The notes under the pieces: generated by a model
The model's database searches: none
What the model was told of the DNA's origin: nothing
The model's input: only the letters and a program-made list of their open reading frames with translations
Translations under genes and position numbers: made by a program
Origin: Campylobacterales bacterium
Lineage (GTDB): Bacteria; Campylobacterota; Campylobacteria; Campylobacterales; QNZT01
Length of the DNA stretch: 46,147 bases
Assembly (NCBI GenBank): GCA_024278835.1
Contig: JAJRSK010000060.1
Span: 1 to 46,147, forward strand
Direction: 5' to 3'
In this document: one piece after another, positions 67 through 15,448 of the stretch
Layout of the letters: each line of letters starts with the position of its first letter
Position numbering within the stretch: position 1 is the stretch's first letter

Positions 67-126
67 CTATCTACCCTTACACACTTCCCCAAGCGTACTC
101 TCCACCCAACCTTCAGGTAAACTCAT
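67..126 (-). pseudogene. hsdS: 5' remnant of type I restriction specificity subunit HsdS
   Basis: An ATG at 126 overlaps the stop of the RhuM-Fic gene (ATGA overlap) and opens a frame reading MSLPEGWVESTLGEVCKGR before a TAG at 69-67. The 'LPEGW...LGEVC' start is typical of HsdS specificity subunits, which normally run about 400 residues with two target-recognition domains. Only 19 codons survive here. The next 66 bases to the window edge can be read in another frame but show no clear HsdS continuation, so the gene is either disrupted soon after its start or frameshifted. The translational coupling to rhuM fits the usual hsdM-rhuM-hsdS operon order. The remainder lies outside the window. Confidence 0.55.
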
Positions 127-1121
127 AGCACATCTTCGTAGAGCATATTCATAATCAGCTTGATGATGATATCTTTTTGTTCAGGGGCAGAGGTGGCGAC
201 TAATAGTGCGAGTGATGCTAGGGCATTGTCGTTTATTTTGGGTTCGCCGTTGGGTTTGTGTAGCACACCATTTTTGTGTAAAAACAGCACAAATAAGTAC
301 GCCCCAATGCGTTTGTTGCCATCGTTAAAAGGGTGACCTTTGATGACATAGTAGAGAAGGTTGGCTGCTTTTTGTTCTATGCTTGGTAGTAGCTCTTCTC
401 CTCCAAAACTCTGATAAATGTTGAGTATATTACCCTTAAATTCTCCTGCTTTCTCTTGCCCGAAAAGCTCTGTGGCTTCGCCTTTTTGTATGAGTACTTT
501 TTTGAGCTCTGCTATGGCTTCTTTTGCTTCGGGATAGTCTAGTATAAATCTACTTTTTATAGTTTGTGCCACCTCACAAAGCGACTGCTCATCATACCCT
601 TGGAGCAATGCCCAACTTTTAGCATAATTGCCTATGATTTCTACAAATCCTTTGGCTTCTGTTACCCCTAGCCCTTGGTTATCCAAGCCTTGTTTTATGA
701 GTGATATAGTTTGCTCTAGCTCTTGGAGCTTTTTTTGTTGGAGTTTTTCTTTGTTTAGAGCGTAGCCCTTAATGATATACTGTTTTAAAACACTTGTAGC
801 CCACACTCTAAACTTCGTTGCTTTCTGAGAATTGACTCTATATCCTACAGAGATAATGGCATCCAAATTATAAAACTTAACTTTTTTTGTTTGTGTTTTA
901 CCCTCCATAGCACCATGCATAGTGGTATGTTCCATTTTGGAACATACCACTTTCTCTTCTAATTCATTTGATTTAAAAATATTACTAAGGTGCTTTGTAA
1001 TAGCAGGTCTTTTGACATCAAATAGTTGAGCTATTTGCTCTTGGCTTAGCCATACCGTCTCATTTTCAACAGTTGTATTTAGTGCAACTGTTCCATCTTC
1101 ATAGATTACTACATCACTCAT
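123..1121 (-). CDS. RhuM-family protein with C-terminal Fic/Doc domain
   Basis: This 332-residue protein has two parts. Residues 1-120 match the RhuM (virulence-protein-like) N-terminal domain, with a helix-turn-helix-like start (WLSQEQIAQLFDVKRPAITKHL) and the conserved 'YNLDAIISVGYRVNS' region. Residues 150-332 carry a Fic/Doc fold with the signature HPFNDGNKRIG at about 263-273, matching HxFx[D/E]GN[G/K]R, the site for nucleotide transfer to a target hydroxyl. RhuM-Fic genes often sit between hsdM and hsdS in type I restriction operons. Here the gene is coupled by ATGA overlaps both to the small upstream ORF and to the hsdS remnant downstream. The signature is intact, so it may be active; the cellular target is unknown. 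Confidence 0.8.
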   Translation of the reverse strand: MSDVVIYEDGTVALNTTVENETVWLSQEQIAQLFDVKRPAITKHLSNIFKSNELEEKVVCSKMEHTTMHGAMEGKTQTKKVKFYNLDAIISVGYRVNSQKATKFRVWATSVLKQYIIKGYALNKEKLQQKKLQELEQTISLIKQGLDNQGLGVTEAKGFVEIIGNYAKSWALLQGYDEQSLCEVAQTIKSRFILDYPEAKEAIAELKKVLIQKGEATELFGQEKAGEFKGNILNIYQSFGGEELLPSIEQKAANLLYYVIKGHPFNDGNKRIGAYLFVLFLHKNGVLHKPNGEPKINDNALASLALLVATSAPEQKDIIIKLIMNMLYEDVL

Positions 1122-2935: not shown

Positions 2936-3586
2936 TCAAGTAGTTTTTTTTAAATTTTCTTTTGTCATCCGATATGAAGTAATATACTCCACAGGTTCTG
3001 ATATGGGTAATTCTAATTCTATATTTTCTTTTAAATCTTTTATCTGTTTTGCTCGTTTAAATGCGTTACTATTAATACCTAGTATTTCAATCATCTCTTT
3101 AACTCTTGATTTTTCATCAGTAGTCAAATTGTTATTTGGTAAAAATAAATTCAATTCATCGTCAAATTCCAAATATTTATCTGGATTATACGCAGGATTA
3201 TCAGGTTTCAATATATTATCAACAGGCTTAGTACCTTTTACTCTGCAGTTTATATTACTATTTGCCATAAATAGGTTATCCCACAGGTAACCTTGTGTAC
3301 TTTTGAGCGTACAATCAAAATGTTCTAAATCACCATTAATCAAGTTCTGATTACTCAAATTACCAATATATTTGCCATCTTTCCACTTATCATCTGATAA
3401 TAACTCTCTATCACACAAAAGTTCTTCTGTATAGGCACATAAACCATTTTGACACTTAAGAAGACTCATTTTTATATCTTTAACATGGGTTTGACTACTT
3501 TTATATTCTGGATGATTATCGCCCAATCCCTCTTCCCAAGCTTTATATACAATAGAACGAATATATGACTTATCTATCTTCTGCAT
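2936..3586 (-). CDS. ptuB: HNH-type nuclease, PtuB/TIGR02646-like (Septu effector)
   Basis: The 216-residue protein shows the layout of the TIGR02646/PtuB HNH nucleases: a cysteine-containing turn (LCAYTEELLC, residues 49-58), then DLEHF (about 87-90) with the likely catalytic histidine, then YLWDNLFMANSNINC (about 100-114), and later a 'NPDKYLEFD' element like the family's 'NPxxHLxFD'. The second cysteine of the usual CAYC is threonine here, so metal binding may differ. The start codon overlaps the stop of the upstream ATPase (TAATG), so the pair is translationally coupled. In Septu systems the ATPase holds the nuclease until phage infection. Family assignment is from motif layout; no search was possible. 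Confidence 0.6.
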   Translation of the reverse strand: MQKIDKSYIRSIVYKAWEEGLGDNHPEYKSSQTHVKDIKMSLLKCQNGLCAYTEELLCDRELLSDDKWKDGKYIGNLSNQNLINGDLEHFDCTLKSTQGYLWDNLFMANSNINCRVKGTKPVDNILKPDNPAYNPDKYLEFDDELNLFLPNNNLTTDEKSRVKEMIEILGINSNAFKRAKQIKDLKENIELELPISEPVEYITSYRMTKENLKKTT

Positions 3587-5112
3587 TAGTTTTGCAATCC
3601 TAACAATGAAGAGAGCTTTTTAAACTGTTTTATCTTCTCTTTGGCGTCTTGTGAGGTTTTATCTTTCATCGCTTTTATCTCAGCCTTCAAAGTAGCATAT
3701 TCCATCAATTTTTTCTCTCGAAAGCTAAAGTTAGAATCTTCTTTGAGGTCAAAGACATCCGTAAGTATCCCCGTCCATGTAAGCATACGAGGATCTACAA
3801 TGTAGTTATCTACATGGTTGTCACCCTCGTAATACTTTTCTCTATAGATTTGATTGTTTTTATCAAACTTTAGCTCTACTACTTCCCATGGCTCAAAACT
3901 AGAAGCTATCAGTGGTGAATGTGTAGCCATGATGAGTTGATTGTTTTTACCTATATTCATATAGAGGTCTGTGAGTTGCCTTTGAATATTAGGATAAAAA
4001 GAGATCTCTGGTTCATCTATGAGAATGGTGCTGTCTTTTGGTTTGTGACTTTTAAGAGGTATAAATGTTGAAAGTAAATTTTTAGCTCCTGTACTTAGGT
4101 CATCATACTCTATGGTAGTATCATTGGATAAATCTCTAATAATCAACTCTTCATAACTTTGAGTATCTTCATCTATATGTAATTTTAGGTTAAACTTTTG
4201 GATAATCATATTTATATCATCAGCTATTTTTTGTAAGATATTTTCATTATCTTTTTCCCAAAGAGCCATATCTTTTTTATAATCATCTTTAGTATAATTA
4301 TCGTCATTTAATAATTTTGTAGATAATTTTTTTGTATATTTAGTTTTTTCTATTTCATAGCTGTCTATGCGTTCTTTTAATAATTTCCATGAATTGGTTT
4401 CTTCGTTAATATTTACTATATATTTATTGAGAAAATTTTTCTTTTTAAGATTTTTTAAAGTTTGGGGAATATCTTTTGTTTTGTAATATCTATCTTCAAT
4501 TTGATTCTTTTGTTGATTTAAAATATCTAATTCCATTTCATATTTAGTAAAATCCCCATTAGCTTTTATTAATAAATTGGTCATCGTATCTTCCAGAGAT
4601 AATAATCTTTCTTTATTATTTTGAGACATTTGTATAGATTCATTATGCAGTTTAATTTGTTTTTTTACATCTTTTACTGCACTAATAAAATAGTTTTTTT
4701 CATACTCAGTAAAAGTAAAATCGTCATAGAGAGGAAGTCTAGCTGTTGGCTTTTCTCCTATGGGTATAGGATTTAAAAGTTTACCATGAATCTTAGACTC
4801 ATCCATTGTAAATAATGTTTCTACAATTTTTTCATCAACTAATTTAAATTTAGTACGAATATACTTATCGTCCGTATCTTCTCCAACAAATTCAGAAAAA
4901 GGCAAATAATTATTTTTATCTTGTTCAGAAAAATCAACAGTAGATTTCTTAACTATATCAAGCAAGTTTGTCTTACCTGTGCCACTCTGACCGATAATAC
5001 AAATTTTATCTAAAGGTTTTCCTTCGTTAGGATGCCCTTTAGGATAGGTCAAATCCAATTCTAAATCTGAAAACTGTTTATAATTGCGTATATGTAAATA
5101 ACTTACTTTCAA
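3586..5112 (-). CDS. ptuA: AAA/ABC-type ATPase, PtuA-like (Septu sensor)
   Basis: This 508-residue protein starts with a recF/SMC-like strand (YLHIRNYKQFSDLELDL) and a Walker A GQSGTGKT at about 41-48. A long lysine- and asparagine-rich helical insertion spans roughly 130-300. The C-terminal half has a signature-like LSTGAKNLLST, a Walker B ending IDEPEIS, and a switch histidine in MATHSPLIA. This is the architecture of 'old-like' ABC ATPases used in defence, including PtuA and RloA. It is directly coupled to the HNH gene, the hallmark of Septu. The gene is more AT-rich than its neighbours and free of the dispersed palindrome, both consistent with transfer. Other ATPase-HNH defence pairs remain possible. 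Confidence 0.65.
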   Translation of the reverse strand: MKVSYLHIRNYKQFSDLELDLTYPKGHPNEGKPLDKICIIGQSGTGKTNLLDIVKKSTVDFSEQDKNNYLPFSEFVGEDTDDKYIRTKFKLVDEKIVETLFTMDESKIHGKLLNPIPIGEKPTARLPLYDDFTFTEYEKNYFISAVKDVKKQIKLHNESIQMSQNNKERLLSLEDTMTNLLIKANGDFTKYEMELDILNQQKNQIEDRYYKTKDIPQTLKNLKKKNFLNKYIVNINEETNSWKLLKERIDSYEIEKTKYTKKLSTKLLNDDNYTKDDYKKDMALWEKDNENILQKIADDINMIIQKFNLKLHIDEDTQSYEELIIRDLSNDTTIEYDDLSTGAKNLLSTFIPLKSHKPKDSTILIDEPEISFYPNIQRQLTDLYMNIGKNNQLIMATHSPLIASSFEPWEVVELKFDKNNQIYREKYYEGDNHVDNYIVDPRMLTWTGILTDVFDLKEDSNFSFREKKLMEYATLKAEIKAMKDKTSQDAKEKIKQFKKLSSLLGLQN

Positions 5113-5863: not shown

Positions 5864-8449
5864 CTATTTTCCTTCGTAAAAAACCACTTCAGGGTCTGAA
5901 TAATTTGGCACATCATCATAAGAAAAGACGGCGTAGTATTTGTCTATCTTGGTGGAGCCAAAGTTATCATAGGTGTAGTTATCGTTTCCTGCGTAGAGTT
6001 TTACGCCATCGTATGGATTTGTTGGCTTGTGGAAGCGGTTTCTCACGACATAAGCACCTGTAAAATTCTTATCACTTGGATTTTCCCAAGTGAGTTTTAC
6101 CATACCTTTTTCTATGGATGTTCTTAGATTTGTGCATGGTGCTGGTGCAAACTTGGAGCGTTTGATGTATTTTACGATGAGTTTTACCTCTTGTTTATCA
6201 CCTTTGCTGTACCAGTTCACGGCGTGCTCTTTAGAAGAACTTACCGTAGTAGCTTTTACGATGAAGCTAGCAGGTTTGTCCTCTTTGTGAAAATTTTCAA
6301 GTTCTAGGAGTGAAAAACTATCAAAGAGAAGATGGTGTTTACTTTTGTTTTTCAGGTCTGCTAAAGAGAGTTCATAACCGATAAATTCTATGCGTTCTCT
6401 GTTCTTTATATCTTCATAACTATGGCTTTGTGTGTCAACAAACTCTACATTGTATCTTGCATCGTTTGAGAGTTTTGGCTTGTTTTTGTTTTGTATGATG
6501 ATATAGGCATCGGTGATAACGGTTTCATCAGGATTTGGCAGGGTGTCTAAGTCAAATTCCATATAGCCATAAATCTTTTCACCATATTTATCGTAACCAC
6601 AAGAGAGTCTCTCTGTGTCAATACCCTCTTTTGATATGCTATTTGCCATGGTTGGGGCGATTTCTAGGGTTGTAGCAGGCAGAGTGTACTTGATATCGAT
6701 GTGTGGACGATAGTGAATCCCTCCCCCATATGGACCATATCCCAAGTCAAACTGCATCATCTGAGAGTCTCGGCCAAGTGGTAGTTGGGTAGGACCTTGA
6801 AAACGAAAGAGTACTTTTTCATTTTTTATCTCTTCTTGGAGGAGAGATTTTTCATAGTCATTAAAATTCCATTGTCTCCAGATTCCTTGGGTGAGTTTTT
6901 CGGACTTGATAGTTTCACCTAGTGTTTGGATGATTTCTGCCTCATGTATCTGCTTGAACTCTGTAATCTCGCTCACGCTCTCTTGATTGACAAAAGAGAG
7001 TGACCATTCACCAAACTTTTCTATCTTTGCATTGACACGATTCATGGGATATAAAGAGATGGTTGCTTCTTGGATGATAGCATTTTCAGGAAGGTTTGTG
7101 AGTGAAAAAGCCATCACACCATAACTGATACCTCTGCCTTGGCTGACGCCAACAAAGATGGAATTTTTGCCAAAATGTTCTCTATTTTGCTCCCCAGATT
7201 TTTCTGCCACATAGCCAATTTCTTGGGGTGTTGGAAAAATGGTTTTGGAAAACTCTTCACGGTTTAAAAGTGTTTTGACCTTGAGTTGAGGTGCAAAGGG
7301 GGATTTTGTGTTGTTGATTTTATCAACGGCTCGGATATAGTAAAAATACTCTTTACAACTCTCTAGTTGGATATCGGTAAAGGTATGGTTTGATGTTGTT
7401 GCTATGAGGTTTTCTTCACGACACGCTTGTTTGTGTTGGGTACTTCTAAAGAGTTGATAAAAGAGATTTGGGTTGTTACTGCTGTCTTCCCAAGCAAGCG
7501 TGACTGTATCGCTATCAAAGGCATTGATATGAAAATTTTCTACTCTTTTTGGCGCGGCTTTACTATAGTTTTTGGCTTCTGAGAGTGCATAGAGAAGGGC
7601 GGGGATATTTTCATCGATGCTTTCAGTCATATTTTGCATATAGTCAGGGATATTTCTCGTGCCTACTTCAACCACGATAGCGATGATACCTTTTGAGTAG
7701 TAGTGTTCACGACCTGAGCCTGAGATAAGCTTTGTAGGTGGTTTACCACGATGTATGCCATACTCACGACCAGTTACTTTTTTGATTTCATAGTTCATAT
7801 TGGCGCATAGTAGATTTAAGTCTGTGCCATTTTCTTCGGCTTCATGGTTAAACATATGGGCAGGAAAGAAAACATTGCCTTGTGAGTGATAATCAAGGGC
7901 GATGGTGATATTGTTATGTGCTGCAACAAAGTCTCTCATGGCAGCTGTTTCTGGCTCAGAAAAAGGAGCAGGACCACTATAAACATTTGAAGAAGTGTCT
8001 TTGCTTTTTGTATAGCCTACATCAAAGTTTCTATTTAAGTCTACACCAAAGGTACCATCTTTATTATCACGTCTATTTTTTCTCCAAAAAGAGAAGTGTG
8101 TACGCGAGTATTCAAAGCCATCAGGATTGAGACAAGGTACGATGTATAGAGTGTTTTTTGTTAAAGCCGCAGTAATCTTTGGATCAGTTTGATAGTTTTT
8201 TAATAGATGGTCTATAAAGTGTACTGAGAGTTCATTGCCTATCCACTCTCTTGCATGTACGGTGCCTGTAAAGAGAAGGGCTGGTTTTAAGTCAGCATGT
8301 TCTACATCAATGGAGATGGTTGCCAAGACGATTTCTCTGCCTTCCCACGTCGTGCCTATGTTTTTGATAGTGATAAGGTTTGGATAAAGTTTGACACATT
8401 GTTTTAAAAAGTCTACGGTTTCTTGATAAGATTTATATTGTTGTTTCAT
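5864..8449 (-). CDS. M14 zinc carboxypeptidase with fibronectin III-like domains
   Basis: The N-terminal 300 residues are an M14 metallocarboxypeptidase: zinc ligands HARE (H65, E68) and H188 in DYHSQG, substrate-binding DLNRNF (about 137-142) and the catalytic glutamate E261 in VVEVGT. A fibronectin III-like domain follows (about 310-395), then two beta-rich regions (about 410-590 and 600-760) and a second fibronectin-like domain (about 770-861). Such accessory domains are usual in secreted enzymes, yet no signal peptide is present and an in-frame TAG lies two codons upstream of the ATG, so no longer start exists. The gene precedes nth with no gap and follows two ATP-grasp ligases on the same strand. 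It would remove C-terminal residues from a peptide or protein; substrate unknown. Confidence 0.85.
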   Translation of the reverse strand: MKQQYKSYQETVDFLKQCVKLYPNLITIKNIGTTWEGREIVLATISIDVEHADLKPALLFTGTVHAREWIGNELSVHFIDHLLKNYQTDPKITAALTKNTLYIVPCLNPDGFEYSRTHFSFWRKNRRDNKDGTFGVDLNRNFDVGYTKSKDTSSNVYSGPAPFSEPETAAMRDFVAAHNNITIALDYHSQGNVFFPAHMFNHEAEENGTDLNLLCANMNYEIKKVTGREYGIHRGKPPTKLISGSGREHYYSKGIIAIVVEVGTRNIPDYMQNMTESIDENIPALLYALSEAKNYSKAAPKRVENFHINAFDSDTVTLAWEDSSNNPNLFYQLFRSTQHKQACREENLIATTSNHTFTDIQLESCKEYFYYIRAVDKINNTKSPFAPQLKVKTLLNREEFSKTIFPTPQEIGYVAEKSGEQNREHFGKNSIFVGVSQGRGISYGVMAFSLTNLPENAIIQEATISLYPMNRVNAKIEKFGEWSLSFVNQESVSEITEFKQIHEAEIIQTLGETIKSEKLTQGIWRQWNFNDYEKSLLQEEIKNEKVLFRFQGPTQLPLGRDSQMMQFDLGYGPYGGGIHYRPHIDIKYTLPATTLEIAPTMANSISKEGIDTERLSCGYDKYGEKIYGYMEFDLDTLPNPDETVITDAYIIIQNKNKPKLSNDARYNVEFVDTQSHSYEDIKNRERIEFIGYELSLADLKNKSKHHLLFDSFSLLELENFHKEDKPASFIVKATTVSSSKEHAVNWYSKGDKQEVKLIVKYIKRSKFAPAPCTNLRTSIEKGMVKLTWENPSDKNFTGAYVVRNRFHKPTNPYDGVKLYAGNDNYTYDNFGSTKIDKYYAVFSYDDVPNYSDPEVVFYEGK

Positions 8450-8556
8450 GGTTCCCTACGTTTATAGAATAATCAATGATTATAACATAAATTTTAGGAA
8501 AAGAGTTTATCAAAAAAACCTTTTTTCTCTTGAGGTACTTGAATGACAGATTTACT

Positions 8557-8606
8557 CTATCATGATAGTCTAGCAATGTGTAGCCTATATGTAACTATCA
8601 TGATAG
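8557..8606. repeat. paired copies of palindrome CTATCATGATAG
   Basis: Two perfect 12-base palindromes (8557-8568 and 8595-8606) lie in the 171-base gap between the ATP-grasp gene and the M14 gene. They could pair with each other or each form a small cruciform. The rest of the gap is T-rich with no ORF. Confidence 0.8.
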
Positions 8607-8620
8607 GGTATAAGCGGTGT

Positions 8621-10036
8621 TTAAAGCTTTAACATCTCTTTAAATCTTCCCCATTGTTTTAAAAGCTTGCCAAGGGTTTTTTCTTTCATGCCATCTATCG
8701 TTAAAAGAACATTAGGGTTGTTTTCTATCACATCTACAAGACCCTCTTTTCCATGTGTTTCTAGCATAGCACTTGCTTTTTTGTTGCCGATGCCTTTGAC
8801 GGATGTAGTGAGGAAAGTATGTAACTCTTCTTCACTAAGGTTATTGACATTGAGACTTGACTCATCGTTATCTTTTGGTGCGTCTACTTCCATCGTTTTG
8901 ATACTTTTTAGTGGATATTTATCTTGATAATTCCACTTTTCACTTGGCCACTCTTCGTAGTTTCTATCTTCAGTATTGAGCATAGGATAACGGCTATCAA
9001 GTTCAAAGATATCTTCTGTGCCATCACTAGTTTCTCTTTTTTGATTCATGAAGTATTCACCATCAAAACTTTGTGAGTATTTTCCAAAAGTGATATAACG
9101 CATGGTTCTTAGCAGTGATGCGTCGATTTTACCTAGTTCTTCCCAGTTGTAAAGTGGGATATTGGGCTTTTTAAATCTTCCGTCGGAAAGCTTCCACATG
9201 ATGTACTGCCCAATCCAATCGCGGATATAAGGAAATGCAGCAAATGCCGTGGCACATTCAAGGATTCTATACTTTCCATCTTTACCCACCGCGACATCAC
9301 AAGCCCAGTATTCGGCGTTGGCAGCTTTAGAGACTTTCACAGCCAAATCAAGAAGTTCTTTAGGCACATCCATATAATCCATACTACCACCCTGTGAAGT
9401 GTTTGTGAGCCATTCCCCTTCAGGTGCGCGTCTCCAAAATGCACAGACAGGTTTATGACCGATGAGCATCACACGTACATCTGCTTCCATCGGGACGAAG
9501 TCTTGCATATACATAGGATGGTATTTTTTCACATCAAAGAGCTTTTTGGCTTCTGCTGCGGAGTCAGCTTTGTGGACAAAATATCCACCATAGTTAGAGG
9601 GACCATAACTCTTTTTGATGATTTTAGGATACTCAGTTTTTGCGACAAAGTCATAGCCTTTTTTTCTATCGTAGTAGATGTAGGTTTTTGGGATAGGGAT
9701 ATCATACTTCCAACAAAAACGGGTGACATTCTCTTTTGACTTGTTTGAAAACTGTGTGTCCATCGATGGGATAAACTTGACATGCGGTAACTCTCTGGCT
9801 ATCTCTCTAAATGTCTCATAAGCAGTCGCTGGGATATTTCCGATAAGCACATCAATCTTTTTACGCTTTACTTCTTTGATAAATCTCTCTTTATCATTTT
9901 TCCAGTGATAGGTGACTGTCTCTATCTTGTCTGGCCAGCCACGAAAATTTGAGTGATCAAAAAATCGTAGTACATAATCTAAATATAGAAAGCCTAATTT
10001 TGGTAGTTTTTTCTTGTTTTTCTTCTTTTTGCCCAT
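8621..10036 (-). CDS. ATP-grasp family protein with C-terminal helix-hairpin-helix
   Basis: This 471-residue protein begins with a very basic tail (MGKKKKNKKK). An ATP-grasp core spans about 90-290, with a lysine-bearing nucleotide segment (YPKIIKKSYGPSNYGG) and a late acidic motif CDVAVGKDGKYRILECATAF. In active ATP-grasp ligases the last motif is E-x-N; here it is E-C-A, so a metal-binding asparagine is missing. A linker rich in acidic and aromatic residues follows (about 300-410), then two hairpin motifs (VKGIGNKKASAML and IDGMKEKTLGKLL) like DNA-binding HhH pairs. It starts 3 bases after the stop of the other ATP-grasp gene with AAGGA before the ATG, so the two form an operon. It may be a non-catalytic or nucleic-acid-targeting partner. 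Confidence 0.7.
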   Translation of the reverse strand: MGKKKKNKKKLPKLGFLYLDYVLRFFDHSNFRGWPDKIETVTYHWKNDKERFIKEVKRKKIDVLIGNIPATAYETFREIARELPHVKFIPSMDTQFSNKSKENVTRFCWKYDIPIPKTYIYYDRKKGYDFVAKTEYPKIIKKSYGPSNYGGYFVHKADSAAEAKKLFDVKKYHPMYMQDFVPMEADVRVMLIGHKPVCAFWRRAPEGEWLTNTSQGGSMDYMDVPKELLDLAVKVSKAANAEYWACDVAVGKDGKYRILECATAFAAFPYIRDWIGQYIMWKLSDGRFKKPNIPLYNWEELGKIDASLLRTMRYITFGKYSQSFDGEYFMNQKRETSDGTEDIFELDSRYPMLNTEDRNYEEWPSEKWNYQDKYPLKSIKTMEVDAPKDNDESSLNVNNLSEEELHTFLTTSVKGIGNKKASAMLETHGKEGLVDVIENNPNVLLTIDGMKEKTLGKLLKQWGRFKEMLKL

Positions 10037-10039
10037 GCT

Positions 10040-10948
10040 TTATCCTTGTTTTACTTTTCTATCTATTAAATCGACAATTAATTGAATTTTTTTAGCATTA
10101 AATTCTAATCCCATCTTTTCTTGTTCAGGTGTGGCAAAGGCTGGAATACCATTTATCTCCAATACCACGTACTCTTCTCTCTCCTCATCATAAATCAAAT
10201 CCACACCAGCGATGTCAAGACCGGCTATCTTGGTCGCTTTTTTAGCGATTTCTACGACTTCATCATTGGCTTCACGAAGGATGACAGATCCCCCCGAAGT
10301 GACATTGGTTTTCCAATTGTCTTTGGGGGCTTGTCGTCCATAACAAGAGACAAATTCTCCATCAACGATATCGATGCGAAAGTCGGTGTTGTCATACTTG
10401 ATAAAGCGTTCTACATAAAAGTAACGGATATCTGTCTGGTTGAGAAAAGGCATGAGCATATCAAGGGTGGCTTCATTTTCTATCTTGACTAGACCCATAC
10501 CACCCCAACCGTCAGTTGGTTTGTAGACGATTTTTCCGCCCCATTCTCGGAGGATATCTTTGAGACTGCCCACATCATCTCTATGACAGAGCATGTAGTC
10601 TGCGGTGTTGATGCCATTTCTTTTGAGAAGTTGCGCTGTTTTAAACTTATCTTCACTTATATTAAATGCTTCATAGGAGTTGATAGTAGGGATGAAGTGA
10701 TTTAACATTTCATAGAGATAGACTTGATACTGTGTCTGTTCACCGGCATTGTAAGAGAAGAAAAGGTCAAGCTCTTCCATGACGGTGCCACGACAATTTA
10801 TCTCACCATTTTTTGCTGTTGCTTCTCGTAAGTTAAGGTCGGGAATGGTGATGATATCCCTCTCTCTGAGTGTGTCGATCAGTTCTTTTTGAATCCGATC
10901 ACCGCCACTGTTTTGGTACATCCACATACCAATTTTATGTGTTGACAT
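10040..10948 (-). CDS. RimK-like ATP-grasp ligase
   Basis: The 302-residue product (start MSTHKIGM, ATG at 10948 with AAAGGA upstream) is a complete ATP-grasp enzyme like RimK or glutathione synthase. It has the nucleotide-binding KIVYKPTDGWGGMGLVKI segment, a VERF hinge, an arginine-containing DFRIDIVDG, and the metal-binding LEINGIPAF with the E-x-N triad intact. Such ligases join an amino acid or peptide to a carboxylate through an acyl phosphate. It is first in an operon with the second ATP-grasp gene and its promoter is back to back with that of an M20 peptidase. Whether it extends a peptide, a small molecule or a protein tail cannot be told from sequence. Confidence 0.75.
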   Translation of the reverse strand: MSTHKIGMWMYQNSGGDRIQKELIDTLRERDIITIPDLNLREATAKNGEINCRGTVMEELDLFFSYNAGEQTQYQVYLYEMLNHFIPTINSYEAFNISEDKFKTAQLLKRNGINTADYMLCHRDDVGSLKDILREWGGKIVYKPTDGWGGMGLVKIENEATLDMLMPFLNQTDIRYFYVERFIKYDNTDFRIDIVDGEFVSCYGRQAPKDNWKTNVTSGGSVILREANDEVVEIAKKATKIAGLDIAGVDLIYDEEREEYVVLEINGIPAFATPEQEKMGLEFNAKKIQLIVDLIDRKVKQG

Positions 10949-10981
10949 GGCTTTTCCTTTGACAATTATAAAGATAGTGTT

Positions 10982-10996
10982 ATTATACGATATAAT
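10982..10996. promoter_or_regulatory. divergent -10 boxes between ATP-grasp operon and M20 gene
   Basis: A TATAAT reads on the plus strand at 10991-10996, 31 bases before the M20 ATG, and another reads on the minus strand at 10987-10982, 33 bases before the ligase ATG. They are only three bases apart, so the two promoters would share the same stretch and probably be co-regulated. Confidence 0.6.
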
Positions 10997-11027
10997 TGCT
11001 AGAAAATGGGCATATAAAGGGCAAAAA

Positions 11028-12134
11028 ATGGGCAAAGCGTATGATTTTTCAGAGTTAGCGTCGATTATCAACATAAATTCTTATACAAAGAACAAAAATG
11101 GGGTGGATACCAACGCTAAAATCTTTGCTGGATGGATGGAAGAATTGGACTTTGAGACAATTGTTTATGAGCGTGAAGAGATAGGCAATCATGTTTTATT
11201 TAAATCCAAGCAAAAAGAGGGGAAAAAGTTGTTGCTTTTAGGGCATCTTGATACGGTTTTTCCTGCGCACTCTTTTGAAAAGTTTAGTGAAGATGAGGCG
11301 TGGATATATGGCCCTGGGGTTTGTGATATGAAGGGGGGAAACTTTGTAGCTTTGGAGTCGCTTAGAAATGTGAAAAAGAGTCATCATGATATACACAATA
11401 TCGACTTTTTATTGGTGAGTGATGAAGAGAGTGGCAGTGATGATTCCAAGGCGCTTACCAAAGCATTGGCGGTGGATTATGACTATTGTTTAGTATTTGA
11501 AGCGGCAGGCAAAGAGGGTGAAGTGGTCATCGGACGAAAAGGTGTGGGAACATTTTTTATCGACATCAAAGGAAAAGCAGCGCACGCGGGCAATGCGTAT
11601 GTCAATGGCACCAATGCCAATTTAGAAGCCGCGCATAAACTCATCGCGCTTACCGCCTTAACAGACCTAGAGAAAGGCACTACGGTCAATGTTGGAAAGA
11701 TGGAAGGAGGTATCGGGGCAAATACTATCTCACCCTATGCCAAACTTGTAGTGGAACTGCGCTACACCAACACGGATGAGATAGATAGGGTGCTTAATGC
11801 CTTTGATGCTATCGTACAAAAATCATTTGTGGAGAATACGACAGCCATACTCAGTGGTGGGATACAGCGTGATGTGATTTAAAGTTCAGCAAAACAGTTA
11901 GCATTTCTCGCCAAACTTGAAGAGGTCTCAGGGGTGAAGCTCCCGACAGAAAAACGCGGAGGGGTGAGTGATGCCAATATCGTAGCAAGCCAAGGGGTCA
12001 TCACGCTAGATGGTTTTGGACCTTTTGGTGATGGTGACCATACCATCAATGAACGTGCATCCAGGAGAAGCTATCATGATAGGATAGAGATGGTGACAAA
12101 GATATTTTCTGCTTTTTTAGAAGGGAGAATTTAG
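11028..12134 (+). pseudogene. M20 family metallopeptidase (CPG2-like) interrupted by an in-frame TAA
   Basis: The frame from ATG 11028 (AAAGGG upstream) encodes an M20/carboxypeptidase G2-like enzyme: metal-ligand motif LLGHLDTVFP, metal-bridging GPGVCDMKGG, catalytic and metal-binding DEESGS, and FEAAGKEGEVVIGRKG. After 'IQRDVI' a TAA at 11880-11882 stops translation, then the same frame continues with SSAKQLAFLAKLEEVSG and the family's C-terminal GGVSDAN and FGDGDHTINE (final metal ligand region) to a TAG at 12134. So this is a single in-frame nonsense codon, not a frameshift. A truncated product would lack the last ligand. The next gene begins at the adjacent base. It may be a pseudogene, a read-through case or a sequence error. 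Confidence 0.75.
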
Positions 12135-13408: not shown

Positions 13409-15448
13409 TTGCAAGCAAAATTTGAAACGATTATCAAACATTTGATAGGAACCCCAAGTGCCTTAGAAGCTATCACAAAGATTGATATCTCTAGTCAGTT
13501 TAGGCCTAGTGAGGATACTGCCTATCATGATAGAAGTAGAAATATCAATGCCGCTTTTTTGATATTACTTTCAGGTACTTCACATCCTCTTTTTGAAGAG
13601 GCAAAAGCCTATCATGATAGCCACCAAAAAGATCCCATGGTGGTTTATTATCAGAAAATGCTCTCTTTAATACATCAAGAGATTGCCAATAGAGCCAAAA
13701 ATGAGTCAGCTCTTACAACGGATATCAATGCCCTTTATACGATGTTAGATAGTGATTCTCAAGTCTTGTCAGAGCATATCTGGAAAGTTTTTTTCCCTGA
13801 GGCTTGCGGTATATTGGGACATCGTGATGAAGAGATAGAAAAGCTTCGTCAAAAGAGAAAGATATCTATCAGCGCACTTAATGAAAATCCAATAGAAAAT
13901 ATTGCAAATGAGATGTTGTTTACTTCCAATATCCTTTTAACTATCCCACCTGCTTCAAAAGATATAGATGATTTAGGATTTACCCCTTCTCTTGCAAAGA
14001 GACTCAAAGAAGTTTCAAAAGAGAAGCAGAAATTTTGGTATGACCATCCTATTCAGATGGGCGTAGAGATAGAGAAAAATGAAGCGATATATGGCTTGGT
14101 AGGTCTCAATGAAGCGATTAAGTTTGAAAAGCAAAGAGGGACGCTTAAAGAAGATGCAAAAATCAACTGTCTGCTCTCTGTCTCTGTGACACATGATGGT
14201 TTAACGGCTATTGCCAAAGAATACCTAGAAGGGGAACTCAAAAAAGTAAAAGATATTGAAAATCTTAATATCTTTGTGATAACAGAGGTGGATGCGGCAA
14301 ACATTATAGAGACTTTGCTTTTACCAGCAGCGGATAGTTTTGGGATATCTTCTAGTGATGCGCTAAGCGAGATATTTGGTGTGGATGGTGAGTATGGCAG
14401 GCATTACTCTCTGCTTAAAGCCATCGCTGCTTTGTGGCAAGTGTTGGTGGATGCGCAGACACGGGCGACGTTTAAATTTGATTTGGATCAGATTTTCCCA
14501 CAGGAGGAGCTTGTGGCGCAGAGTGGATTGAGTGCATTTGAACATTTTAAAACCCCTCTTTGGGGCGCTAAAGGGACAGATAGTCAGGGTAATGCGGTGG
14601 AATTAGGGATGATTGCTGGTGCTTTGGTGAATCAAAGTGATATCGGTAAATCACTCTTTACTCCAGATGTGACATTTTCTACTAATGCGCCAAGGGGAAG
14701 TCAGTATATCTTTTATAGTGGCTTACCGCAGGCACTTTCGACTGAGGCAGAGATGATGCTTCGCTATGATACGCCTTCTTTTGATGGAAAATCTGCTTGT
14801 ATACAGAGGATTCATGTGACGGGTGGTACCAATGGTATCATGATAGAGAGTTTGCGAAAACATCGCCCATTTACCCCTAGTTTTATAGGGAGGGCAGAAG
14901 ATCAAGCGTATATCTTATCGGTTCTGTTTGATGATACAAGTAGTTTGCGTTATGTGCATAAAGATGGCTTAATCATGCGTCATGATAAACATGCTTTTGC
15001 GCAGGAGTCTATCGAAGCGGCGCATCTAGGAAAGATGGTGGGGGATTACGTTCGGATTTTGTATTTTTCTTATTATGTGAAGGCTTTACCTTGGGATGCG
15101 GCAAAGATTAAAGAGGCTATCAACCCTTTTACCGGTTCTTTTGTATCGCATATACCTTTTACTGTGGTGGCGTTGAGGATGGCTTTGGAGGCAGCAAGTT
15201 TTTTCGAAAAAGAAGAGCCTGAAGAAGCAGATGCTTTTTTAAAGCTAGGGATACAACGCGTGGATGAGACAATCACTTTGCTTAGTGATGATGATTATTT
15301 ATCCCAGTGTTTTCAAGATGAAAAGAGGGGTTGGGATAACTACTATGATATTTTAGATGCCATTGAAAAAGGATTGGGAAAAAAAGAAGAGTTTGCGCTA
15401 AGCTTACGTGCTAAAGCGCAATCCTTGATGCAAGATTTGAAGATATAA
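13409..15448 (+). CDS. large uncharacterised protein with GT-A-like motifs
   Basis: This 679-residue protein starts at TTG 13409 with a strong AAAGGAG upstream. I do not recognise the family. The first 230 residues are helical and charged. The middle has features of a GT-A glycosyltransferase: a strand ending FVITEVDAA, KFDLDQIFP (a DxD-like metal motif, about residue 355), GGTNG, and later GRAEDQAYIL (about 500; an E/D-D pair like the catalytic base) followed by MRHDKHAF (a histidine in the usual metal position). The C-terminal 120 residues are helical. These three motifs in this order suggest sugar transfer from a nucleotide sugar, but this is inference. Three palindromes lie inside (13522, 13609, 14836). 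Confidence 0.6.
   Translation: MQAKFETIIKHLIGTPSALEAITKIDISSQFRPSEDTAYHDRSRNINAAFLILLSGTSHPLFEEAKAYHDSHQKDPMVVYYQKMLSLIHQEIANRAKNESALTTDINALYTMLDSDSQVLSEHIWKVFFPEACGILGHRDEEIEKLRQKRKISISALNENPIENIANEMLFTSNILLTIPPASKDIDDLGFTPSLAKRLKEVSKEKQKFWYDHPIQMGVEIEKNEAIYGLVGLNEAIKFEKQRGTLKEDAKINCLLSVSVTHDGLTAIAKEYLEGELKKVKDIENLNIFVITEVDAANIIETLLLPAADSFGISSSDALSEIFGVDGEYGRHYSLLKAIAALWQVLVDAQTRATFKFDLDQIFPQEELVAQSGLSAFEHFKTPLWGAKGTDSQGNAVELGMIAGALVNQSDIGKSLFTPDVTFSTNAPRGSQYIFYSGLPQALSTEAEMMLRYDTPSFDGKSACIQRIHVTGGTNGIMIESLRKHRPFTPSFIGRAEDQAYILSVLFDDTSSLRYVHKDGLIMRHDKHAFAQESIEAAHLGKMVGDYVRILYFSYYVKALPWDAAKIKEAINPFTGSFVSHIPFTVVALRMALEAASFFEKEEPEEADAFLKLGIQRVDETITLLSDDDYLSQCFQDEKRGWDNYYDILDAIEKGLGKKEEFALSLRAKAQSLMQDLKI

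Follow-up and report, generated by a model that had tools for sequence, protein, structure and literature searches.

We studied a stretch of 46,147 nt of chromosomal DNA from a Campylobacterota metagenome-assembled genome (MAG; contig JAJRSK010000060.1), called the window in the following, and therein a cassette of four genes (5864-12134) that encode two ATP-grasp ligases (A and B), a zinc carboxypeptidase of family M14 and a peptidase of family M20. Since the four genes are inherited together across two phyla, they probably form one functional unit of free-living bacteria. Our preferred interpretation, to which we give about an even chance, is that this unit is a module that reversibly extends an intracellular acceptor, i.e., a protein or a peptide-like cofactor, at its C-terminal carboxylate with acidic residues, for which alpha-linked L-glutamate is the likeliest candidate. 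The joint inheritance of such ligases and of a carboxypeptidase that is probably intracellular and has a basic S1' residue would be best explained by acidic residues being added to and removed from one acceptor.

Co-occurrence and distribution

The four genes were searched individually in 59 related genomes; genome collections were sampled here and below, i.e., not covered exhaustively. All four genes are present in 21/59 relatives and none in 31/59. Pairwise Fisher tests, in which shared ancestry is not fully corrected, give p-values of 1e-10 to 1e-14, and of 1e-7 to 1e-9 (all <1e-6) when performed by genus. Presence is patchy within families (f1, f6, f9, f18). Most partial sets are due to contig ends; true exceptions are G029, which has only A and M20, G056 with M20 alone, and G018, where M20 was not found. 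Unlinked sets are kept as well, i.e., each of the four genes is on a different contig in G031, and B is 0.8 Mb away from M20-A-M14 in G036. With regard to B, only 31/298 sampled good Campylobacterota genomes encode it, and A is present elsewhere in 21/27 genomes where B was found alone.

Outside of this phylum, 12 gammaproteobacterial loci show M20 divergent from A-B-M14, in one order throughout and with differing flanks. They belong to Alteromonadaceae (L106, L109, L110) and to Photobacterium sp. DA100 (L141), and the remaining eight (L220-L227) come from the order that includes Alteromonas alba. Only 9/296 genomes of this order encode B. Their 12 B proteins form one group in the tree (96/92), apart from the Campylobacterota B proteins. 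One of these loci (L225, genome G377) shows several stops in a B frame that was read at full length. The hosts of the cassette are marine or vent bacteria. A preliminary description of this DNA, made from the sequence, had suggested to check whether the four genes co-occur in other genomes. They do so strongly, given the counts, the gammaproteobacterial blocks and the retention of unlinked genes: the four-gene arrangement is far beyond chance.

A phage or plasmid origin and a role as a defence system were rejected. No relative is found among IMG/VR contigs, and phage records hold only distant RimK-like proteins with less than 30% identity. The plasmid match turned out to be pDA100 of Photobacterium, a replicon of 2.1 Mb. 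Finally, 0/4 proteins match PADLOC, which was used to look for a defence system.

Gene layout

The minus strand carries, in the direction of transcription, A (10040..10948, 302 aa), B (8621..10036, 471 aa), with a gap of 3 bp between the two, and the M14 gene (5864..8449, 861 aa), which lies 171 bp beyond B (8450..8620). The open reading frame (ORF) of A was mechanically called up to 11074; homologues start at about 10948. The M20 frame (11028..12134) lies on the plus strand with its start at 11028(+), such that the A and M20 starts are divergent and 79 bp apart. A scan of this intergenic region (10949..11027) yields promoter-like matches only. Across loci, the median spacing is 3 bp for A-B, 30 bp for B-M14 and 12.5 bp for M20-A when co-directional. 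No small ORF within the block is conserved in more than two loci, and a dedicated small peptide substrate encoded in the block was rejected on these grounds. In the vicinity of the cassette, the window holds gap-pgk-tpi, nusA and nth.

The preliminary description had named an operon of an intact RimK-like ligase and a second ATP-grasp gene, which agrees with the 3-bp gap and the intact catalytic set of A. Its cytosolic-looking M14 gene on the same strand is likewise found, without a visible signal peptide. The M20 gene about 80 bases away is indeed divergent, but it is interrupted (see below).

Ligases A and B

RimK/MptN-family ligases activate a C-terminal carboxylate as an acyl-phosphate, which is then joined to an amino acid, often glutamate. 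Ligase A is RimK/MptN-like, i.e., of the alpha-L-glutamate ligase family, and falls into the RimK-type ATP-grasp superfamily (Pfam RimK, E 9.3e-20) with the core lysine pair, the aspartate and the E-x-N motif. The respective residues K101, K143, D250, E264 and N266 are invariant in an alignment of 24 rows. Its best NCBIfam scores are 136.9 bits for MptN (cut-off 350) and 131.7 for rimK_fam (cut-off 143.4), while the RimK model PRK10446 scores 60.6 bits (cut-off 331), i.e., all three remain below their cut-offs. The top PDB sequence match is ArgX, and RimK is matched as well. In Pseudomonas RimK, R64 and R189 contact the poly-glutamate chain (PMC10092738). Of these two contacts, A keeps R189 (as R191), while R64 aligns to Y66. 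Because the position of RimK R64 is a tyrosine, the acceptor pocket of A is predicted to differ from that of RimK.

Ligase B is composed of an N-terminal pre-ATP-grasp domain, a divergent RimK-like core (Pfam RimK, E 8.7e-15) and a C-terminal helix-hairpin-helix domain (about 400-470; HHH_5, E 4.8e-05). Instead of the canonical E-x-N metal motif, B carries E260-C261-A262, which is invariant in 39 rows from both phyla. The fold is otherwise RimK/ArgX-like, with ArgX as the top Foldseek match, besides LysX and RimK. The AlphaFold2 model of B is of low confidence (pLDDT, predicted local distance difference test, of 66.6), and our statements on active sites do not rest on it.

Within Sulfurimonas and Arcobacteraceae, some cassettes hold a second B subfamily (441-504 aa), which forms a separate clade in the tree. 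Some Sulfurimonas genomes show a tandem pair of A genes, where the second A contains a stop in 2/3 cases. Loci with the second B subfamily or tandem A genes in these groups are L143, L179, L181, L182, L184 and L186.

M14 carboxypeptidase

The M14 protein is an M14A-type zinc carboxypeptidase (Pfam PF00246, E 2.6e-59) with CPB, CPA, CPT and CPO as PDB relatives. Its AlphaFold2 model (pLDDT 86.8) shows a catalytic domain (about 1-295), which matches the CPB/CPA fold with a TMt of about 0.83, followed by an FN3-like domain (about 304-392), a DNRLRE-like beta-sandwich (about 400-590; NCBIfam DNRLRE), a second sandwich (about 600-765) and another FN3-like domain (about 770-861). The borders given for the sandwiches in the C-terminal part are rough, since they were drawn from the strands of the model. 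H65, E68, H188 and E261, i.e., the HxxE...H zinc ligands and the catalytic glutamate, are invariant.

Arg247 aligns to Asp255 of CPB, the S1' specificity residue, such that M14 has the basic S1' residue expected for acidic specificity. It is invariant in all aligned copies (36 rows plus 12 gammaproteobacterial rows, which overlap). A simple hydrophobicity check found no signal peptide in any M14 copy. FN3 and DNRLRE-like domains are mostly found outside cells; the M14 protein is, by this check, probably intracellular. Given the invariant S1' arginine and the lack of a signal peptide, it can be read as an intracellular acidic-specific carboxypeptidase, i.e., we predict that it acts on acidic C-terminal residues inside the cell, which fits ligases of a glutamate-adding family. 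Carboxypeptidase O has an arginine at the S1' position. This enzyme favours acidic residues (PMC6214572), and the reading of Lys330 of BcCCP also pairs a basic S1' residue with acidic specificity in M14 (PMC3940198).

Interrupted M20 gene

The M20 frame encodes a peptidase related to carboxypeptidase G2 and ArgE/DapE (Pfam Peptidase_M20, M20_dimer). The preliminary description had read the span as a whole gene, which has to be corrected: an in-frame TAA (11880-11882) leaves 284 codons, and the remaining 83 codons up to 12131 are in frame and conserved. Sequence comparison with intact relatives reveals a sense codon at the position of the stop. The stop stems either from a recent nonsense mutation or from a mistake in the assembly of the MAG. 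The nearest curated model is glutamate carboxypeptidase PRK06133, for which the truncated protein of the window obtains 171.5 bits, i.e., below the cut-off of 349. The M20 ORF is intact in relatives but not in the window.

Neighbouring genes and expression

Cassette neighbours vary widely and include purL, argG, nth and leuBCD; argG adjoins M20 in some Arcobacteraceae. In about 20 Sulfurimonas genomes, efp is found about 20 bp upstream of B, apparently in one operon and apart from the other cassette genes. This efp-B pair was seen at L062, L064, L073 and other Sulfurimonas loci. Furthermore, efp precedes M20-A-B in three Sulfurovum-type loci. Upstream of M20-A-M14, Sulfurimonas shows rpsP-rimM-trmD-rplS, and rimM-trmD-rplS is near the block in two gammaproteobacteria. 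We take the adjacency of efp and of rpsP-rimM-trmD-rplS as weak leads.

With regard to expression, the block of genome G080, which we take to be Nitratiruptor sp. SB155-2, is located at 891649-897667, with genes for an SO_0444 transporter, a cytochrome c, a regulator and TolC at 913-917 kb. In a Nitratiruptor cadmium/copper transcriptome, the latter genes correspond to NIS_RS04910 to RS04935, and NIS_RS04835, annotated as 'ATP-grasp', is up in cadmium (log2 fold change 1.03) and copper (1.29) and belongs to a set of 27 genes that both metals induce (PMC10092412). The induction is about two-fold in two replicates (PMC10092412). Counting genes, NIS_RS04835 (15 gene numbers before the transporter group) would be A, or B if an interrupted copper ATPase counts as two genes. 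A salinity transcriptome of Photobacterium damselae was set aside, as its RimK and M20 genes could not be assigned to the block.

Proposed function and rival explanations

In the proposed module, B would recognise or prime the acceptor, with its N-terminal domain and helix-hairpin-helix tail as candidate recognition parts, while A would extend the tail via the acyl-phosphate mechanism of RimK and MptN. The cytosolic M14 enzyme would trim acidic residues singly, with the S1' arginine binding the side-chain carboxylate, and M20 would either take off the final residue or break down the peptides that are set free. A protein or cofactor is slightly favoured as acceptor in view of the large additional domains of B and M14. 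Reversible tailing had already been suggested in the preliminary description. The four-way co-occurrence and the M14 arginine, which fits acidic removal, are in line with it, and no clear unrelated small-metabolite substrate was found, although a free peptide is a serious rival (see below). The gene content, the joint inheritance, the catalytic residues and the lack of a signal peptide and of LysW are observed, while the residue, the direction, the roles of the single enzymes, the acceptor and a common target for both activities are part of the proposal.

Several observations weigh against this interpretation. S6, the sole protein candidate tested, shows acidic C-termini in genomes with and without the cassette, i.e., gives no signal as an acceptor, and was set aside. 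The acceptor pocket of A is, as judged from the alignment, unlike that of RimK, and B is without the asparagine of the ExN motif, which makes its activity uncertain. A, B and M20 all score under the curated equivalog cut-offs in their family matches. Finally, BcCCP is likewise predicted to prefer acidic residues, but its deglutamylase activity in vitro was low (PMC3940198); a basic S1' residue is thus no proof of acidic activity.

The main and serious rival, which we consider possible though somewhat doubtful, is that A and B join a free acidic oligopeptide or peptide-like metabolite (a stress solute, metal ligand or nitrogen store) in two steps, which M14 and M20 degrade. Two ligases and two exopeptidases without a carrier suit a small-molecule cycle equally well, and the lack of a LysW homologue in the 59 relatives and of a conserved small ORF in the block, as well as the marine or vent hosts, agree with it. 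The induction of NIS_RS04835 by cadmium and copper (PMC10092412) does so too, but it is about two-fold and the gene was identified by counting. On the other hand, the helix-hairpin-helix tail of B and the large beta-domains of M14 exceed the needs of a dipeptide cycle, and the block holds no conserved transporter, GNAT or amidotransferase gene. Should the product be a free peptide, vent and marine bacteria would have a novel stress metabolite. Far less probable is a role in lysine or arginine synthesis, as an amino-group-carrier system of the LysW/LysX/ArgX/LysK kind, in which A would load the carrier and M20 release the product. ArgX is the top PDB sequence match of A and the top Foldseek match of B, LysK is itself a hydrolase of the M20 type, and argG stands beside M20 in some Arcobacteraceae. 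Still, LysW is found in 0/59 relatives, while three control genomes known to encode it are above the cut-off, there is no LysZ/LysY/LysJ set in the block, and M14 and the second ligase are left unexplained. We thus rejected this reading, which only an unrecognised carrier could rescue.

As a special case of the module proposed here, the acceptor might be a translation factor or ribosomal protein, i.e., elongation factor P (EF-P) or S6, in a RimK-like control of translation. The adjacency of efp to B or M20-A-B and of rpsP-rimM-trmD-rplS to the cassette points this way, and RimK itself tails S6. We nevertheless deem it improbable: efp is distant from the cassette in other lineages, neighbours differ widely, and housekeeping operons are frequent chance neighbours. 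In the genomes parsed, EF-P has an identical modification loop whether or not the cassette is present, and S6 tails do not separate the two groups. EF-P was rejected as a partner, since efp adjacency is mostly restricted to Sulfurimonas. That independent housekeeping enzymes are adjacent by chance is hardly credible. While each gene stems from a broad enzyme family, the two-phylum block, the unlinked co-retention and the correlated presence already contradict it.

Among bacteria, the known cases of reversible acidic tailing are mainly RimK and a few cofactors. An extension of our interpretation, which we regard as rather unlikely, would be a bacterial writer-eraser system that acts on acidic tails at the C-termini of cellular proteins, with two dedicated ligases and two dedicated carboxypeptidases as one stress-tied module parallel to tubulin glutamylation and deglutamylation. 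The cassette is a small genetic unit, conserved in two phyla but missing in many close relatives, that would allow the addition and the removal of the tail to be deleted gene by gene. It is testable in culturable hosts, namely Alteromonas, Photobacterium, Sulfurimonas and Nitratiruptor.

Other features of the window

The 12-bp palindrome CTATCATGATAG has 17 exact copies in the window (at 1417, 1837, 8557, 8595, 12071, 12229, 12748, 13522, 13609, 15455, 15830, 19348, 19375, 23675, 38429, 39531 and 40254), and 27 when allowing one mismatch vs. 0.12 expected. Two exact copies (8557-8568, 8595-8606) are within the B-M14 gap. The palindrome occurs genome-wide, inside and between genes, and is not specific to the cassette operon: 583 copies are found in the genome of the window, 258 in the other genome of the genus and 0 to 14 in 38 other relatives, while the reversed pattern, used as a control, gives 0 to 2 copies. 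Its abundance recalls the cyanobacterial HIP1 palindrome.

Beside the cassette, a gene pair at 2936-5112(-) matches a Septu-type PtuA ATPase (202 bits) and PtuB/HNH in PADLOC and is, going by these matches, likely an anti-phage system. At 123-1121(-), a RhuM-family protein with a C-terminal Fic/DOC domain match is encoded. The 679-aa protein encoded at 13409-15448(+), 3' of a DEAD-box helicase, remained without a match in Pfam, NCBIfam and PDB under the thresholds applied.

Comparison with known systems

No description of the four-gene set was found in a literature search with subscription literature outside its coverage, such that its novelty is provisional; a survey of amidoligases by Iyer and colleagues (2009) could list it.

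Closest in kind are systems built around RimK-like ligases. S6 polyglutamylation by RimK/RimABK in E. coli and Pseudomonas also combines an ATP-grasp alpha-L-glutamate ligase with a proteolytic regulator in one operon and yields a tunable acidic tail, and A keeps the catalytic residues. In contrast, A is under the RimK cut-off and lacks RimK R64, and the cassette has a second, divergent ligase. The RimK partner RimB is a retropepsin-like protease (PMC11957791), and thus neither M14 nor M20. A precedent for a two-ligase polyglutamate tail is given by MyfA/MyfB of Methylorubrum, i.e., two ATP-grasp ligases, the second MptN-like, that act in sequence to build the glutamate chain of methylofuran (PMC8141765). 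There, however, no M14 or M20 partner is reported (PMC8141765) and the chain is built on a C1 coenzyme; MyfA is similar to MfnD, while B resembles ArgX/RimK with a helix-hairpin-helix domain. The LysW-LysX/ArgX-LysK system shares a RimK-fold ligase and an M20 hydrolase with the cassette, along with the ArgX matches of A (PDB sequence) and B (structure). The cassette, in turn, is without LysW, kinase, reductase and aminotransferase genes and has M14 and a second ligase in addition.

With regard to the carboxypeptidase, carboxypeptidase O and other M14A/B funnelins share the fold and catalytic residues of the cassette M14, and carboxypeptidase O its predicted acidic preference (PMC6214572). Unlike these, the cassette M14 has neither secretion signal nor pro-domain, carries four extra C-terminal beta-domains and is part of a bacterial operon. 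If the cassette works as proposed, it would resemble the eukaryotic tubulin system, where TTLL ligases add acidic residues and intracellular M14 CCPs remove them. The comparison with tubulin tyrosination drawn in the preliminary description serves as an analogy only: the closest relatives are neither TTL nor the M14D cytosolic carboxypeptidases, i.e., the cassette M14 is of CPA/CPB type (HAREW motif) and not an M14D CCP (HPGE motif), and its ligases are RimK-like.

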